From Bacteroidota bacterium (GTDB lineage: Bacteria; Bacteroidota; Bacteroidia; Bacteroidales; UBA12481), in contig JABHCC010000134.1 of the NCBI GenBank assembly GCA_018669475.1, positions 1 through 63,984 on the forward strand: a stretch of 63,984 bases of DNA. The letters run 5' to 3'. The position numbers and the translations under genes are program-made. How positions within the stretch are numbered: position 1 is the stretch's first letter; each line of letters starts with the position of its first letter. Positions 26,805-32,631 of the stretch are shown in pieces. The notes below the pieces were generated by a model. That model was given only the letters and a program-made list of their open reading frames with translations, was not told the DNA's origin and made no database searches.

Positions 26805-27351
26805 GTTTACTTATCTGTTTAAACTCATCCGTTCCAGCTTCTTCAAGCAACTCAAACAGGGTCATTTCTACAGTGGTAAGTTTTGCTCCAAGAGATTCCA
26901 TGACTCTCAAACCCATCTCATAATTCTTTTCAGTTCTGGATGATACTGCATCAGCGATAACCTCAACATGATATCCCTGTTCCAACAACCCGCTCACGGT
27001 TTGATACACACAAACATGTGCTTCAATACCCATAATCAGAATCTGATTTCGACCTTCTTGTTTTAAGCGAGTGTTAAAATCAGATTGCCCGCATGAGCTG
27101 AAACACATCTTTTCCATTGGTTTCTGAGGACTGAGTATTTCATTTAATTCAGGGATTGTAGATCCCAGTCCTTTAGGATATTGTTCCATCCAGATGATTG
27201 GGATATTAAAAATATGGGCAGCTTTTGTCATTCGAACCATATTCTCACGGATGAAATCAGGATTATGCATCACATTAAATATCCGTTCCTGAATGTCAAT
27301 TATATGCAGGACTGTATTTTCTTTTTTTAGCATAGAAGTTTTATTTATCAC
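26794..27351 (-). CDS. isochorismatase-family cysteine hydrolase
   Basis: A 185-residue hydrolase of the isochorismatase-like superfamily. The catalytic triad is visible: Asp19 (HIIDIQ), Lys81 (MEKMCF) and Cys114 (GIEAHVCVYQT), with the usual cis-peptide before the nucleophile strand. It lacks the aryl-carrier domain of siderophore enzymes, so it is more like the YcaC/nicotinamidase-type branch; the substrate is open. The start could be 27351 or MLKKEN at 27333; the second avoids overlap with the upstream gene, whose stop is at 27341. It is in a run with the propeller protein upstream and the S41 protein downstream. Confidence 0.85.
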   Translation of the reverse strand: MINKTSMLKKENTVLHIIDIQERIFNVMHNPDFIRENMVRMTKAAHIFNIPIIWMEQYPKGLGSTIPELNEILSPQKPMEKMCFSSCGQSDFNTRLKQEGRNQILIMGIEAHVCVYQTVSGLLEQGYHVEVIADAVSSRTEKNYEMGLRVMESLGAKLTTVEMTLFELLEEAGTDEFKQISKLVK

Positions 27352-29995
27352 TTACTCTTCCTACCGGCCATATTGGTGATTCCAGTACACGGACAGATTG
27401 TTCAAGAACTTGTTCTCCGGTTTTCAATTGAATAGTATAAGGATTTGGAATCATCCGGGAGGTATTAACATATATTTTGTGTAAACCCTTATCAGCATTT
27501 ACTTTTCTGTTAAAGATTGCTTGTCCGGAGAAATCAACTACAGAAATTTCCACATCGGTTTCAGCATCTTCTTTCAGATAATAATAGATTTCGAAGCCAT
27601 TCGGTTCATTTGCTGTTCGGAGATGGTTGTCACCCTTCATTTGCTGATTGCCCCAGCCACTTCTATCGGAGTAGTTCTTTGCAGGTTTATCCAGAACTCT
27701 GAAAAGATGAATGTCATTGTCAAGCAGTTCAGGAGATATTTCAGACAAAGGGGAAACATCCATAATAAATGCGCCTCTGCCATAAGTGCCAACAACCAGG
27801 TCTTTTTCCCTTGGATGAACCAGTAGATCACGAACTGGTACGGGTGGCATATTTTGATTAAGGCTTATCCATGATTTTCCCCGGTTGAAACTAACATAAA
27901 CTCCCATATCTGTTCCGGCATACAGTAAATCAGGATTCTCATCATCTTCAAATAAAACACTTACAGGGGCAGGGGGGAGTCCCTCTGAAATATCAGTCCA
28001 TGATTGTCCGTCATCATCGGACCGGTAAACAAATGCTTTAAAGATGTCTTCGCGATAGCCTGATTTAGTGATATAGCTCCGATGAACATTGTGTTTTGAG
28101 CTAAGCACACGACTAAGCCAGGTGTCACGTGGGGCACCAGCTTTTACAAGAGCATCAGTTAAGTCGATCCATTCATCTCCGTGGTTTTTAGTGAAGTGTA
28201 CCTGACCATCATCAGTGCCAATCCAGATCAGGCCTGCCTGAAGAACAGATTCAGAAATAGTTGTTATTGTACAGAACATAATATGTCCTTCTCCTGCAAT
28301 TTTGATTGGATCATTATTAGTCAGGTCTGGGCTGATTTCCTCCCAGCTACTACCACGGTCAACGGATCTTAAAAGGTATTGAGCCCCTGTATAGATAATC
28401 GCTGAGTTATGGGGTGAAATAATCAAAGGTGTTGTCCAGGTATACCGGTACGACGGAGCATCAGCAGCAGGTTTTGGTGTAATCTCCCATCTTTGTCCGG
28501 TCAATTGATCCTCTCGATGATGTTTTCCAAACTGGGTGGTGAAGTATAGCCATCGATTGTCTTCACGGTCGACTTGAGTATACATTCCATCCCACATTCC
28601 TGTTATTACCCAATCTTCAAGACCAATAGATCCATTCCAATTATTAACCGGAGCTTTCCACGTTTCATGATCCTGCAGTCCGATATACAAATTATATGGT
28701 TGATTGTTATCTACTTCAACGTGATATACTTCACCTGCAGGGATATGGTAGTAATGGTTCATATGTTCACCTCCATCCCATGACTCGTATATACCTCCGT
28801 CACTACCAAGCATTATGTGTCGTGAATCAGTTGGGTCGATCCAGAAGCTCCTGTTATCACCGAAATTGCTTCGGAACAGGTTCTTCTCTCTCCAGCCTCG
28901 TGGCCATGTTTTGCCTCCGTCAAGAGTGTAGTTCATTGAGGCACCTATAATATATACTTTGTCCGCATCCTGGGGATCTACGTATATCATATTGAAGGAA
29001 TAGGCTGCCTTTCCACTTACATCGATACCATCAGGACTAATGTTTTTCCAGTTTCTCCCGCCATTGGTGCTTTTATAAACTTCCCCGCCAATAAGGGCAT
29101 CGTAAGAATCATCAGTAAAGGCATCGAAGCCTTTATTTACTCTCGGTTTGTAATCAGGGTCAGGGTTCAGGTTTTGTATGACTGTATACAGAATGTCGGG
29201 ATTGTTTTGATGAATATCGATACCAATACGTCCGAGATTGCCTTCAGGAAGTCCTCCTCCAACCACTGTCCAATTTTCTCCTGCATCCGAGCTCTGATAA
29301 ATTCGCGATTTGGGTCCTCCGGCTTCAAAGTGCCAGGGTGTTCGTTTCATATCATAAGATGATGCAAAAAGAATATCAGGATTTTTCTTGTTCATGACAA
29401 GGTCAATAACACCAATGTTTTCATTGATATACAGAACTTTATCCCAGCTTCTCCCTCCATTAGTGGTTTTGAAAACTCCTCGTTGCTCATTGGAGGAAAA
29501 CAGATGTCCCATTACTGCAACATATACAATATCGGGATTTGTGGGGTGTATGATTATGCGGTTAATATGATGTGAATCGTGCAGACCCAGGTCTTCCCAG
29601 GTATCTCCGCCATCCATTGATCTGTATATTCCATTACCGGCATAACTTGACCTGGCACTGTATGCTTCCCCGGTTCCGATCCATACCTGGTTGGGATCAC
29701 TTGGTGCAACTTTTACACAACCGATTGAGGTAACTCCCAAATCATCAGATATACAGGTAAAAGTATTTCCATTGTTCACTGTTTTCCAAACTCCGCCAGC
29801 TCGTTCAGCCACATACCATGTATATTTATTTTTTTTATCCGGATTTTCGGGAACGGCCATGTCTGATACCCAGGCACCGATTCTGAATGCACCGAGATTT
29901 CGATAATGCATTTCATTGAACAATTCAGTTGTGATTTGTGAAAAAACCAGGCTGGGTAATAATAACAGTAAGAATAGGGAGAATTTAAATTTCAT
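27341..29995 (-). CDS. large sortilin/BNR-type beta-propeller exported protein
   Basis: About 884 residues. The start at 29995 (MKFKFSLFLLLLLPSLVFSQ) gives a clean SPI signal; the frame upstream to 30112 encodes no signal. Many Asp-box blades are seen, such as SMDGGDTW, TTNGGRSW, SSDAGENW, STNGGRNW, SVDRGSSW, SDDDGQSW and SFNRGKSW, giving two propellers as in VPS10/sortilin-like proteins. The C-terminal region has a small Ig-like domain but no T9SS sorting signal, so it is probably periplasmic or released, unlike its relatives at 51424 and 62880. Bacterial relatives are often named glycosyl hydrolase without proof. A TATTTTTG box at minus 30041-30034 could drive it. Confidence 0.8.
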   Translation of the reverse strand: MKFKFSLFLLLLLPSLVFSQITTELFNEMHYRNLGAFRIGAWVSDMAVPENPDKKNKYTWYVAERAGGVWKTVNNGNTFTCISDDLGVTSIGCVKVAPSDPNQVWIGTGEAYSARSSYAGNGIYRSMDGGDTWEDLGLHDSHHINRIIIHPTNPDIVYVAVMGHLFSSNEQRGVFKTTNGGRSWDKVLYINENIGVIDLVMNKKNPDILFASSYDMKRTPWHFEAGGPKSRIYQSSDAGENWTVVGGGLPEGNLGRIGIDIHQNNPDILYTVIQNLNPDPDYKPRVNKGFDAFTDDSYDALIGGEVYKSTNGGRNWKNISPDGIDVSGKAAYSFNMIYVDPQDADKVYIIGASMNYTLDGGKTWPRGWREKNLFRSNFGDNRSFWIDPTDSRHIMLGSDGGIYESWDGGEHMNHYYHIPAGEVYHVEVDNNQPYNLYIGLQDHETWKAPVNNWNGSIGLEDWVITGMWDGMYTQVDREDNRWLYFTTQFGKHHREDQLTGQRWEITPKPAADAPSYRYTWTTPLIISPHNSAIIYTGAQYLLRSVDRGSSWEEISPDLTNNDPIKIAGEGHIMFCTITTISESVLQAGLIWIGTDDGQVHFTKNHGDEWIDLTDALVKAGAPRDTWLSRVLSSKHNVHRSYITKSGYREDIFKAFVYRSDDDGQSWTDISEGLPPAPVSVLFEDDENPDLLYAGTDMGVYVSFNRGKSWISLNQNMPPVPVRDLLVHPREKDLVVGTYGRGAFIMDVSPLSEISPELLDNDIHLFRVLDKPAKNYSDRSGWGNQQMKGDNHLRTANEPNGFEIYYYLKEDAETDVEISVVDFSGQAIFNRKVNADKGLHKIYVNTSRMIPNPYTIQLKTGEQVLEQSVRVLESPIWPVGRVSDK

Positions 29996-30059
29996 CTGAC
30001 AAGTATTTTTTGGTTTAGCAAAAAACGTAAGATCAAAAATAATTATTTGAATTGAGAAA

Positions 30060-30586
30060 AGGGTATAAAACACAAACGGGAAACCACCTTGACGATGATT
30101 TCCCGTTCCCACCTTTCGGTCGCCGTAGCTTCCGGGGTGTCCAAGTTACTGTTTGACTGGTTTTGGGCGCAATTCCGTAGAACCACTCCTGCCACCCGAA
30201 TTTCCAACCTGGCCTTGCAGCCTGATCTTCTTCTCCGTTTTTCGATCCCTTTCCTGTTCTCCCGAAAGAGTTCATTCAAGGTGAACTTTTATCCTGGTGG
30301 GATGTGCTTTCGCCCTTTTTGGATTAACCAGATGCTTCGTCCTCCCTTCTGTGTTGACTTGCGCCAATTTCCAGAATCGGGGGGGATCTGATAATTCCCC
30401 TGGCAGCTTGTTCTCGTGTTTCCGTCCTCGCTGTCTATCACCCGTCAGGGTTGCCCCTTTCGACTTCTGTTCATCGCGAATTTCCGCACTCGCTTCCGCT
30501 GTAGGTTAGTCTGGACTTGCGTCCTTTCTTGTTCATCCCTTTCAAAGAACCTGACCGCTCGACGGCCGTTTTCACTCACTTGGTAC
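30060..30586 (-). ncRNA. candidate large structured RNA, about 520 nt
   Basis: No credible gene lies here, but the minus strand reads like a structured RNA. Base composition jumps (33 of 60 bases are G or C at 30121-30180). Hairpins on the minus strand with GNRA loops: 30524-30521/30516-30513 (GCAA), 30458-30455/30450-30447 (GCAA), 30367-30363/30358-30354 (GCAA) and 30120-30118/30113-30111 (GAAA). Others: a 9-bp stem 30290-30282/30274-30266, a 5-bp stem 30400-30396/30386-30382, and a perfect 9-bp stem 30107-30099/30083-30075 followed by TGTGTTTT, a possible terminator. A promoter (TTG, 20 bases, TATCTTTG) lies just upstream. I do not find the hallmarks of RNase P RNA, tmRNA, 6S or a group II intron domain V. 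Five short frames overlap each other on both strands here; I regard them as chance. Confidence 0.6.
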
Positions 30587-30589
30587 TAC

Positions 30590-30620
30590 CAAAGATAGTA
30601 TACAAAGTGTCTCATGTCAA
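30590..30620 (-). promoter_or_regulatory. promoter for the structured RNA
   Basis: Minus strand: -33 core TTG (30620-30618), 20 bases, then TATCTTTG (30597-30590), a full match to the Bacteroidota TAnnTTTG box with the expected spacing. The predicted start near 30584 coincides with the edge of the GC-richer block. Confidence 0.6.
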
Positions 30621-30739
30621 GGATTTTGGGTTGTTTTCAATTAACGCATTACTAACAGGACTTATTAACATTTGTTCATAACAATAAGCGAATAGATCAT
30701 AATGAATTAGAATCGATAATTACTGATATTAACAATTGG

Positions 30740-30789
30740 CTTATAAAAAGAGGGCTTGCAAATTATTATGCAAGCCCTCTTTTTATAAG
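30740..30789 (-). terminator. strong hairpin terminator, 21-bp perfect stem
   Basis: CTTATAAAAAGAGGGCTTGCA (30740-30760) and its exact complement (30769-30789) flank an 8-nt loop. U-runs lie on both sides, so it can work in either direction; it follows the POT transporter stop by 12 bases. Confidence 0.9.
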
Positions 30790-30801: not shown

Positions 30802-32631
30802 TTAACTATCTTTCGTAGATCGTTCAAGTTTCTTCATTATAGAGAAAATAAACGCCGCAGATAACATGCAGAATACGATAAAAATCAACCATAATTGCCA
30901 TAATTGAATCCGATCCCACATTTTTGATCCAACAAATAGCAGTTTATTACCCACAGCAGTTGCAGCTAACCAACCTCCCTGCATTAATCCCTGGAACCTT
31001 ACGGGAGATACTTTTGATACGAATGACAAACCCATCGGACTCAGGAAGAGTTCAGCGATTGTGATAATAAAATATGTACTGATCAACCACCAATGCGATA
31101 TACGTGCTTCATCGCTTATTGTTGAACCTGTAAGATTCAGATCTTTCGGTGCAGCCAGGTCAAGCGATCCTATCAGCAATAAGGCAAAAGCCACAGCTGC
31201 CAGGATCATTCCAATTCCAATTTTTCTCGGAGTTGATGGTTCTTTCTTACGTCTATTTAACCAGGCAAAGAATCCAATAACAAGTGGTGTTAAGAAAACT
31301 ATATAGAATGGATTAAAATGCTGGAAGATTTCTGGCTGAATCCTGTTTGTTGGGTCAAATGAATTATACATTAAATAGACTGCAACAGCACCACCAAGGG
31401 CCGCAATGGCTCCAATTCCTCTTTCTTTTGCTGAGGATTTATTTCTTAGAGCATATCCCAGACCGGTCATAGCAATACCAAATGCAAGCAAGGACCAGAC
31501 ATTAAAAAATATCATAGAGAAGTTGCTTACCGATTTAACCGTGAAATCTCTGGCAAAGAGAGTCATGGTCAGGCCGTTTTGGTGGAAGGCCATCCAAAAG
31601 AAGATGACCACAGTAAATACAAGTAATAGTGCTGAAATCCTTGGTTTCTCTTCTTTAGTTGATATTTGCAATATCCACACGACAAATATGATGAACAAGC
31701 CTGCAGCAAAGGCAAGGCTAAAACCATCTTCGCCAAATAATTTCATGCCAAAATAAATTCCCAATGCAGCTCCCACACCAACAATCAGTGCCCAAACAAT
31801 TGCCAAAGGCTTCTTTGGTGGCTGTTCCTTAGCTCCTTCACCAGTGACTTCTTCAACAACAGCCTGTGAACGATCGGGTAGAAGTTTTTTCCAGAAGATA
31901 TATACGACTAAGCTAATAACCATAGAAATAGCTGCTACACCAAAAGCATAGTTATAGCCCTGGGAGAAAACATCTATGTATCTTTCTGCGAAGGCATGCA
32001 TGTCAGAGCCTACTGCTCCTGTGCTTGCAGCATTTGCGAGATCTTGTAATTTGGTCATGTCAACCGACTCGTTAGCCAGTAAACGATTACTCAAGGAAGC
32101 CAAATCCTGATCGTAAATAAAACCTTGTGATTTCAGGTACCAGTTTCTGATTCCATTAGCAGCATGCGGAGCAAAAAGTGCACCAACATTTATACCCATA
32201 TAAAACCAGCTATAAGCCCTGTCGCGTAAATGAGCATATTTTGGAGCGTCATACATCTGACCAACCAGGGCCTGCAAGTTACCTTTGAATAAACCATTAC
32301 CAAATGCAATGATGAAAAGACCACCAACGGTCGCCCATAAAGTAAGCTTTGGAATAGCCATAACAATATAACCCACAAACATTAAGGCAATACCGACAAG
32401 AATTACAGTCTTGTATTTCTTAGTTTTATCAGCCAGAAATCCACCTAATAGCGCTAAAGCATATATGGCAAAATAGAACCAGCTATAATACTCGCCGGCG
32501 CCATCAGCTGAAAGGTTGTATCTGGCTTGCAAGAAGAAAACGAGACAAGCCATCATAGTGTAAAAGCCAAATCGTTCACCCATGTTGGCGAAGAAGGCAA
32601 CAATTAGTCCTTTTGGATGTCCTTTAAACAT
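30802..32631 (-). CDS. POT/PTR-family peptide transporter
   Basis: A 609-residue major-facilitator peptide symporter with about 14 membrane segments, within the proton-dependent oligopeptide transporter family. The N-terminal motif is NMGERFGFYTM (16-26), equivalent to ExxERFxYY of helix 1 but with Asn16 in place of the first Glu, a residue tied to proton coupling in studied members. The FxxFYxxINxG-like segment is also present (SWFYMGINVGALFAP). It would import di- and tripeptides across the inner membrane. It has its own promoter and terminator and is divergent from the nnr-pepD run, which also handles peptides. Confidence 0.9.
   Translation of the reverse strand: MFKGHPKGLIVAFFANMGERFGFYTMMACLVFFLQARYNLSADGAGEYYSWFYFAIYALALLGGFLADKTKKYKTVILVGIALMFVGYIVMAIPKLTLWATVGGLFIIAFGNGLFKGNLQALVGQMYDAPKYAHLRDRAYSWFYMGINVGALFAPHAANGIRNWYLKSQGFIYDQDLASLSNRLLANESVDMTKLQDLANAASTGAVGSDMHAFAERYIDVFSQGYNYAFGVAAISMVISLVVYIFWKKLLPDRSQAVVEEVTGEGAKEQPPKKPLAIVWALIVGVGAALGIYFGMKLFGEDGFSLAFAAGLFIIFVVWILQISTKEEKPRISALLLVFTVVIFFWMAFHQNGLTMTLFARDFTVKSVSNFSMIFFNVWSLLAFGIAMTGLGYALRNKSSAKERGIGAIAALGGAVAVYLMYNSFDPTNRIQPEIFQHFNPFYIVFLTPLVIGFFAWLNRRKKEPSTPRKIGIGMILAAVAFALLLIGSLDLAAPKDLNLTGSTISDEARISHWWLISTYFIITIAELFLSPMGLSFVSKVSPVRFQGLMQGGWLAATAVGNKLLFVGSKMWDRIQLWQLWLIFIVFCMLSAAFIFSIMKKLERSTKDS

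Follow-up and report, generated by a model that had tools for sequence, protein, structure and literature searches.

We find that the stretch of Bacteroidota DNA analysed here (63,984 nucleotides, hereafter the window) codes for a structured noncoding RNA some 517 nt long in a free-standing gene, which lies at 30067-30583 on the minus strand and, to judge from its sequence, is presumably transcribed. The existence and structure of this RNA are argued from comparison with its relatives; its transcription and its function are what we infer from there. In the reading that we prefer, and to which we give a probability of roughly 0.55, the RNA belongs to an undescribed Bacteroidota class and acts as a ribonucleoprotein RNA whose transcription would be coupled to growth or DnaA and aided by boxA. 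As expected of a free-standing gene, it has its own promoter, its own terminator, a covarying structure and no conserved reading frame, all of which supports the original prediction of a large structured RNA gene of about 520 nt at this place.

The block differs sharply from its surroundings in composition, as had been claimed: G+C content is 51.5% within 30067-30583 against 41.8% and 37.6% in the flanking 500-base stretches, and the purine content of the minus strand is 62.7% against 53.2% and 49.4%. The folding that had been ascribed to the minus strand is also borne out, with a fold that beats shuffled sequences (z -2.13, 0 of 100 shuffles equal), as compared with a plus-strand fold that is no better than shuffles (z +0.65). 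A credible reading frame had been reported missing, and it is: every ORF inside the block is at most 100 amino acids long, and we find no frame conserved across the homologues (91 RNAs). We rejected a protein gene or pseudogene on these 91 RNAs, 86 of which contain ORFs of at least 30 amino acids (215 in all), none with BLAST relatives among more than 8 of the other RNAs. A phage or plasmid element was rejected as well, with 0 blastn matches in phage and plasmid collections, and the pattern of upstream element plus 5' end (see below) matched 0 viral contigs. Read from its first GTG (27341-30112, a mechanical call), the frame of the downstream gene overlaps the 3'-terminal 46 bases of the RNA; by eye, translation more likely starts from an ATG near 29993.

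The coordinates of the gene and its elements are collected in Table 1. The promoter, of Bacteroidetes type, sits exactly at the upstream edge where it had been predicted, and together with conservation it suggests that the 5' end of the RNA is at about 30583. In 81 of 91 copies TAnnTTTG stands directly 5' of the RNA, a count to be read knowing that, for the 57 copies which the model supplied, the choice of the 5' end included a scoring bonus for the promoter and some weight for the box array. At the other end, the predicted U-rich tail is present and the stem is longer than the predicted 9 bp: the terminator hairpin P4 has 13 pairs in the window fold and is followed by GUGUUUU. Promoter and terminator are also present in relatives. 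The downstream gene, a propeller gene for which a separate -7 box had been proposed, has a candidate for it in TATTTTTG.

Table 1. Positions in the window of the RNA gene, its control elements and its structural parts
Feature	Positions	Strand	Basis or remark
Noncoding RNA gene, ~517 nt	30067..30583	-	both ends conserved in relatives; covariation; without credible Rfam match
Array of boxes: the palindrome TTATGAACAAATGTTAATAA (30662-30681) and weaker ones	30640..30681	-	unique in genome; array conserved
Promoter TTG-N20-TATCTTTG, Bacteroidetes-type	30590..30620	-	sequence at exactly these positions
P1 5' strand CCAAGU	30578..30583	-	pairs with 30141-30146
Conserved internal-loop strand GAGUGAAAA (family GAGNGAUAAA)	30569..30577	-	alignments A2, A4
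boxA-like GUUCUUUGA	30542..30550	-	9-mer identical to 16S rRNA leaders
GCAA hairpin	30513..30524	-	tetraloop scan, stem >=4 bp
GCAA hairpin	30447..30458	-	tetraloop scan, stem >=4 bp
GCAA hairpin, 5 bp	30354..30367	-	tetraloop scan
UUCG hairpin	30259..30270	-	tetraloop scan, stem >=4 bp
GCAA hairpin	30211..30222	-	tetraloop scan, stem >=4 bp
UACG hairpin, 7 bp	30169..30186	-	tetraloop scan
Conserved internal-loop strand AACAGUA (family AACNGUA)	30147..30153	-	alignment A5
P1 3' strand ACUUGG	30141..30146	-	P1 pairing in 91 copies
P3 hairpin, cUACGg tetraloop	30110..30139	-	helices 1 and 2; 8/8 pairs with changes on both sides
P4 terminator hairpin	30075..30107	-	helix 3; 13/14 pairs with two-sided changes
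Terminator tail GUGUUUU	30067..30073	-	present in 9/9 sequences of first alignment

Relatives of the RNA are found in its order and beyond. A blastn search of 295 genomes of the order gives matches in 10, among them the window's own genome and one chance match of 25 bases (G109); in the 8 other relatives both ends are conserved and the middle is divergent. The conserved 5' end reads CCAAGYGAGNGATAAAAGG and the conserved 3' end AATAACNGTARCTTGG, the latter followed by a hairpin, the terminator and GTGTTTT. A DNA pattern that combines the upstream element with the 5' end finds 34 loci over 84,980 species, and 31 of them have the 3' half 242-487 nt downstream; of the remainder, L039 and L045 were taken as cut by contig ends and L032 (labelled Marinimicrobia, without the 3' half) as chance. 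The labels of the pattern loci are those of Bacteroidales, Bacteroidetes/Bacteroidota, Lentimicrobiaceae and Porphyromonadaceae metagenome bins, with two bins labelled Chlorobiota. Covariance model R1, which describes the 3' domain, has matches at E<=0.01 in 113 of 393 genomes from the order and at E<=1e-6 in 85 (own genome included), and among these 85 clear genomes 74 have the RNA in one place and 11 in two. Because 308 of the 393 genomes have no R1 match at E<=1e-6, in a search whose stricter filters lose weak matches, we do not call the RNA universal in the order. Tandem second copies of the gene were seen in four loci (L108, L109, L110 and L111), at a spacing of about 480 to 1520 bases.

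At the level of the phylum, R1 matches 21 of 395 sampled genomes at E<=0.01; beyond the own genome the match is clear only in G586, G503 and G468 (E<=3.2e-12), and 7 matches outside the class (E 0.0016-0.0094) were treated as chance. A further model (R2), built from 82 sequences and run on 395 genomes of the class, has matches in 38 at E<=1e-4 and in 28 at E<=1e-7 (own genome included), and its matches extend to other orders of the class; the E-values of the models are rough, and the large searches were run with stricter filters. The model hits used numbered 85, of which 11 yielded no 5' end and 74 gave picks; three picks were set aside. Removal of 14 near-duplicates from 105 copies leaves 91 that are distinct and full-length, with a median of 495 nt and a range of 283-651 nt. 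They include thirty found with the pattern, itself containing part of the box array, and 57 that only the model found; 89 of the 91 are aligned in A4 and 82 in A5. Three loci (L201, L202 and L203) look by eye like very distant relatives: they start with ATCAAGAACGA and have a UACG hairpin and a terminator, their P1' is ACTTGATG, ACTTGGTG or ACTTGATA, and upstream of them stands TGTTAATAA in all three and TGTGGATAA in one.

Comparison of these copies reveals how the RNA is built. Conservation is concentrated at both ends, and the interiors diverge quickly between clades. Helix P1 joins the first six bases to RCUUGG close to the 3' end, and 96.7% of its cells are paired over the 91 distinct full-length copies, against 90.4% in shuffles (maximum 91.9%) and at most 47.8% in slid registers. 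Complementarity was not used in choosing the ends for this test, the 5' ends being picked by consensus likeness and the 3' ends by the model. The helix is kept through compensatory pairs (CCAAG/CUUGG, UCAAG/CUUGA, CCAGG/CCUGG, UCAGG/CCUGA, CCAGA/UCUGG, CCGAG/CUCGG and CCUGA/UCGGG). After P1 comes a two-stranded internal loop, GAGNGAUAAA opposite AACNGUA, and then a weaker second helix, P2, which is 84.3% paired compared with 76.7% in shuffles (maximum 80.2%), with 81 of 91 rows in register. By its sequence the window's copy is among the 10 outside this register; its P2 is weak, and GATAAA there reads GAAAAC.

The 3' hairpins P3 and P4, which close the transcript, have two-sided changes at 21 of 22 pairs in 82 copies. 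They are 91.6% paired against 71.2% when shuffled, with a covariation score of 0.621 against 0.227 that 0 of 500 shuffles reach. These figures come from a structure predicted from the very alignment in which the pairs were counted, and relatedness of the sequences can push them beyond such shuffles. Slid controls stay low (at most 52.3% paired, score 0.143), and for this reason an artefact of relatedness is disfavoured. By eye, P3 ends in a UNCG loop (UACG or a variant of it) in most rows of A5, which has 82. An early idea, also by eye, that CCGUA and UACGG form a pseudoknot was dropped: the pairing is not kept in homologues, and UACG is the tetraloop. Covariation, which the original prediction had named as the support to look for in homologues, is thus strong in P1 and in P3/P4.

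The variable interior, rich in GNRA and UNCG loops, sits on P2. Over the 91 RNAs we count 191 GNRA hairpins in the sense direction, 10 in antisense and 31 in shuffles, and for UNCG hairpins 88, 16 and 6. In the window itself the GNRA hairpins predicted for the minus strand are present in a different tally: counting stems of 4 bp or more, there are four GCAA hairpins, a UUCG hairpin and a UACG hairpin, in place of three GCAA and one GAAA. Small hairpin motifs (CCGAAAGG, CCGCAAGG and UCUUCGGA) recur across copies. Among seven loci that neighbour a POT transporter gene (the window, L015, L031, L036, L043, L048 and L049), two-sided changes fall at 37 of 106 predicted pairs, the structure having been predicted on that same plain MAFFT alignment.

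A closing helix, a conserved two-stranded loop and a variable periphery form the layout of ribonucleoprotein RNAs such as RNase P and SRP RNAs. Because the architecture of our RNA matches this layout, we regard ribonucleoprotein RNA as its most likely function, judged from the architecture alone. The conserved core of P1, loop and P2 would be the binding platform for a partner protein, and the RNA, with its conserved core and variable periphery, would act in trans. In a much bolder version, which we hold to be doubtful, it would be a class-wide Bacteroidota ribonucleoprotein RNA with a DnaA-bound promoter and rRNA-type antitermination, that is, a replication- or growth-coupled RNA machine new to bacteria.

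The same structural data bear on two other functions. The loop motifs of the interior might titrate an RNA-binding protein, in the way that CsrB titrates CsrA, whose motif is GGA; a total length that varies from 283 to 651 nt and the recurrence of CCGAAAGG, CCGCAAGG and UCUUCGGA among copies would fit such a protein-sequestering RNA. Yet the recurrent motifs are the stable tetraloop caps themselves, GGA is barely enriched (1083 against 916 in shuffles), and it is the ends that are conserved rather than the interior, so that we consider this function unlikely. Many free-standing bacterial RNAs are regulators that pair with mRNAs, and the transcript could instead be a precursor cut into small RNAs of this kind, as the fast divergence of its interior would allow; a covarying closing helix and a conserved internal loop favour an intact folded RNA, and we rate a precursor as less likely still.

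Upstream of the promoter lies an array of boxes, TTATNAACA facing TGTTNATAA, about 60-100 bases 5' of the RNA, with box starts that peak at -86, -73 and -62. These boxes are similar to DnaA boxes (consensus TTATNCACA), but mostly with A for C at the sixth base. The relaxed box TGTKNATAA occurs in 84 of 91 upstream regions against 2.8 in shuffles and 1 of 91 for a control motif, and it is present in 51 of the 57 copies found by the model alone. The strict box TTATNCACA is in only 6 of 91 upstream regions (0.9 in shuffles), and just one of four dnaA loci holds even one TTATNNACA site, the other 3 having none; because strict DnaA boxes are rare here and TTATNNACA is rare at dnaA loci, the array may be the target of a different protein. 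By eye, the palindrome is missing from several copies that belong to other orders of the class, and repeats such as TGTGGATAA or TGTGGGAAAA take its place. In the window's own genome of 5.56 Mb the palindrome TTATGAACAAATGTTAATAA is found nowhere else at up to 1 mismatch. Across 12 genomes, the palindrome TTATNNACANNTGTNNATAA occurs only at the RNA gene in 8, here and elsewhere in 1, only elsewhere in 1 and not at all in 2; as a control, the reversed pattern is present in 1 of these genomes. In the preferred reading, the array 5' of the promoter would couple transcription to DnaA activity or growth.

An array that is so often unique also raises the question of whether the DNA, and not the RNA, is the functional element: the locus might titrate DnaA, as datA does, or be origin-like, with the RNA as a by-product. 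The uniqueness of the palindrome at the RNA gene in 8 of 12 genomes speaks for it, as do the second array elsewhere in G782 and the palindrome of G283 that is found only elsewhere. We think this very unlikely, since the covarying structure indicates that the RNA is selected in its own right and the distance between RNA gene and dnaA varies (about 98 kb in G303, 555 kb in G283 and 1.1 Mb in G782). Strand skew, sampled at 61 places in one complete genome, stayed below the highest of 20 permutations (for GC3 44.0, permutation maximum 83.7; for TA3 23.5, permutation maximum 34.9) and located no origin, nor did a coarser sampling of two genomes.

The second array, with the same palindrome, was seen between LOG-family and OmpA-like genes at about 4800 in L197 (G782:2146799) and about 4925 in L196 (G283:C10:129424). 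It is a candidate for a replication origin or a second target. In 61 windows sampled from G782, three boxes within 80 bases occur only at this array and at the RNA promoter. A LOG-family gene is present in 10 of 12 genomes; among 9 loci examined, 8 have no palindrome behind the gene and the ninth ends there.

Inside the transcript, near its 5' end, is the 9-mer GUUCUUUGA. It stands 105-113 bases 5' of 16S in all four rRNA leader loci examined, from 3 genomes, and we take this leader element to be boxA. Ten of the 91 RNAs have the 9-mer within 110 nt of their 5' end, or 15 if boxA-like variants are included; GTTCTTT anywhere in the interior is found in 31 of 91 in the sense direction, but also in 15 in antisense, against 2 in shuffles. 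In some clades, boxA would recruit the rRNA antitermination complex and so let transcription of a long untranslated RNA run to its end. Both this step and DnaA control are read from likeness of sequence and could be wrong, with no consequence for the existence of the RNA.

The genomic neighbourhood suggests a unit of its own. Its upstream neighbour in the window is the gene of a PTR2/POT transporter (30802-32631); the downstream neighbour is sortilin-like and has BNR repeats. Both genes are on the strand of the RNA, and both were identified with Pfam. An inverted repeat, AAAAAGAGGGCTTGCA...TGCAAGCCCTCTTTTT at 30745-30784, is by eye likely the terminator of the transporter gene and would isolate the RNA gene upstream. 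When neighbours were clustered over 95 loci (some duplicates left out, many loci so short that a more distant partner would escape), no constant partner gene was found; the commonest labels, which come from reading translations, with Pfam run for the two window neighbours only, are DnaG-like (14), two carboxylase genes (13 and 12), HMCES-like (11), RelA/SpoT-like (9) and POT transporter (7). The dnaG-like primase gene is near the RNA gene in several clades (L044, L054, L060 and 11 other loci). Because neighbours differ between clades without a constant partner, the RNA looks like an independent unit, which together with its own promoter and terminator upholds the independence from the downstream gene that had been suggested for it. 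A cis-acting leader or riboswitch of the sortilin-like gene, to which the RNA is immediately 5' on the same strand, is in our view highly improbable, given that a terminator precedes that gene and that other clades have other neighbours (dnaG-like, carboxylase, HMCES-like, RelA/SpoT-like).

As far as Rfam 15 (4227 families) and the open-access literature go, the class is apparently undescribed. The block has 0 matches at gathering scores and, in a relaxed search, one chance snoRNA hit (E=2.7); the relatives' RNAs have 0 matches, the two that were returned (RNase P RNA and tRNA) lying elsewhere, and 10 relatives' loci have 0 matches at E<=1. Thus no credible match emerges from the Rfam search that the original prediction had put forward. 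Its failure to recognise RNase P RNA, tmRNA, 6S RNA or group II domain V agrees with the lack of Rfam matches to them, and ARAGORN finds neither tRNA nor tmRNA in the window; by eye, no reverse transcriptase was recognised among 25 neighbour clusters. Two of its suggestions find no support: kinship to OLE, GOLLD or ROOL, for which there is no Rfam hit, and a mobile RNA, as 74 of the 85 clear genomes have the RNA in a single place, and its neighbours there change from clade to clade.

Bacteria have few large structured RNAs, and those known include ribozymes and scaffolds of essential machines. A conserved RNA that is absent from Rfam 15, with a promoter box array that is often unique in its genome (8 of 12), is a concrete target: with gene, ends, core and covariance model now defined, its expression, partner protein and link to replication become testable.

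As a kind of molecule, a large structured RNA is known; as a class, this one appears from its sequence to stand apart from the families searched. 6S RNAs have an internal loop within their closing helix and are much shorter than the window RNA. OLE, GOLLD and ROOL occur mainly in other phyla or phages. All three are large structured bacterial RNAs (PMC12286853), and the window RNA is also large and structured but has no match to their covariance models (Rfam). The model of 6S-flavo (RF01685), a Bacteroidetes RNA in Table 1 of PMC2864571, is unmatched by the window RNA and its relatives. Structured Flavobacterium sRNAs (Rfp11, Rfp13, Rfp15 and Rfp18) are reported in PMC9723704. A separate RNase P RNA gene is present in 10 of 12 genomes searched, the own genome's on contig C148. 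RNase P RNA of class A has a similar size to the window RNA, and a conserved core with a variable periphery, but the window RNA has no match to its model (RF00010). With the leaders of rRNA the likeness is one of sequence: the RNA is not itself rRNA and boxA-like sites occur only in some of its clades, but the window RNA carries the very 9-mer of the four leader loci examined.
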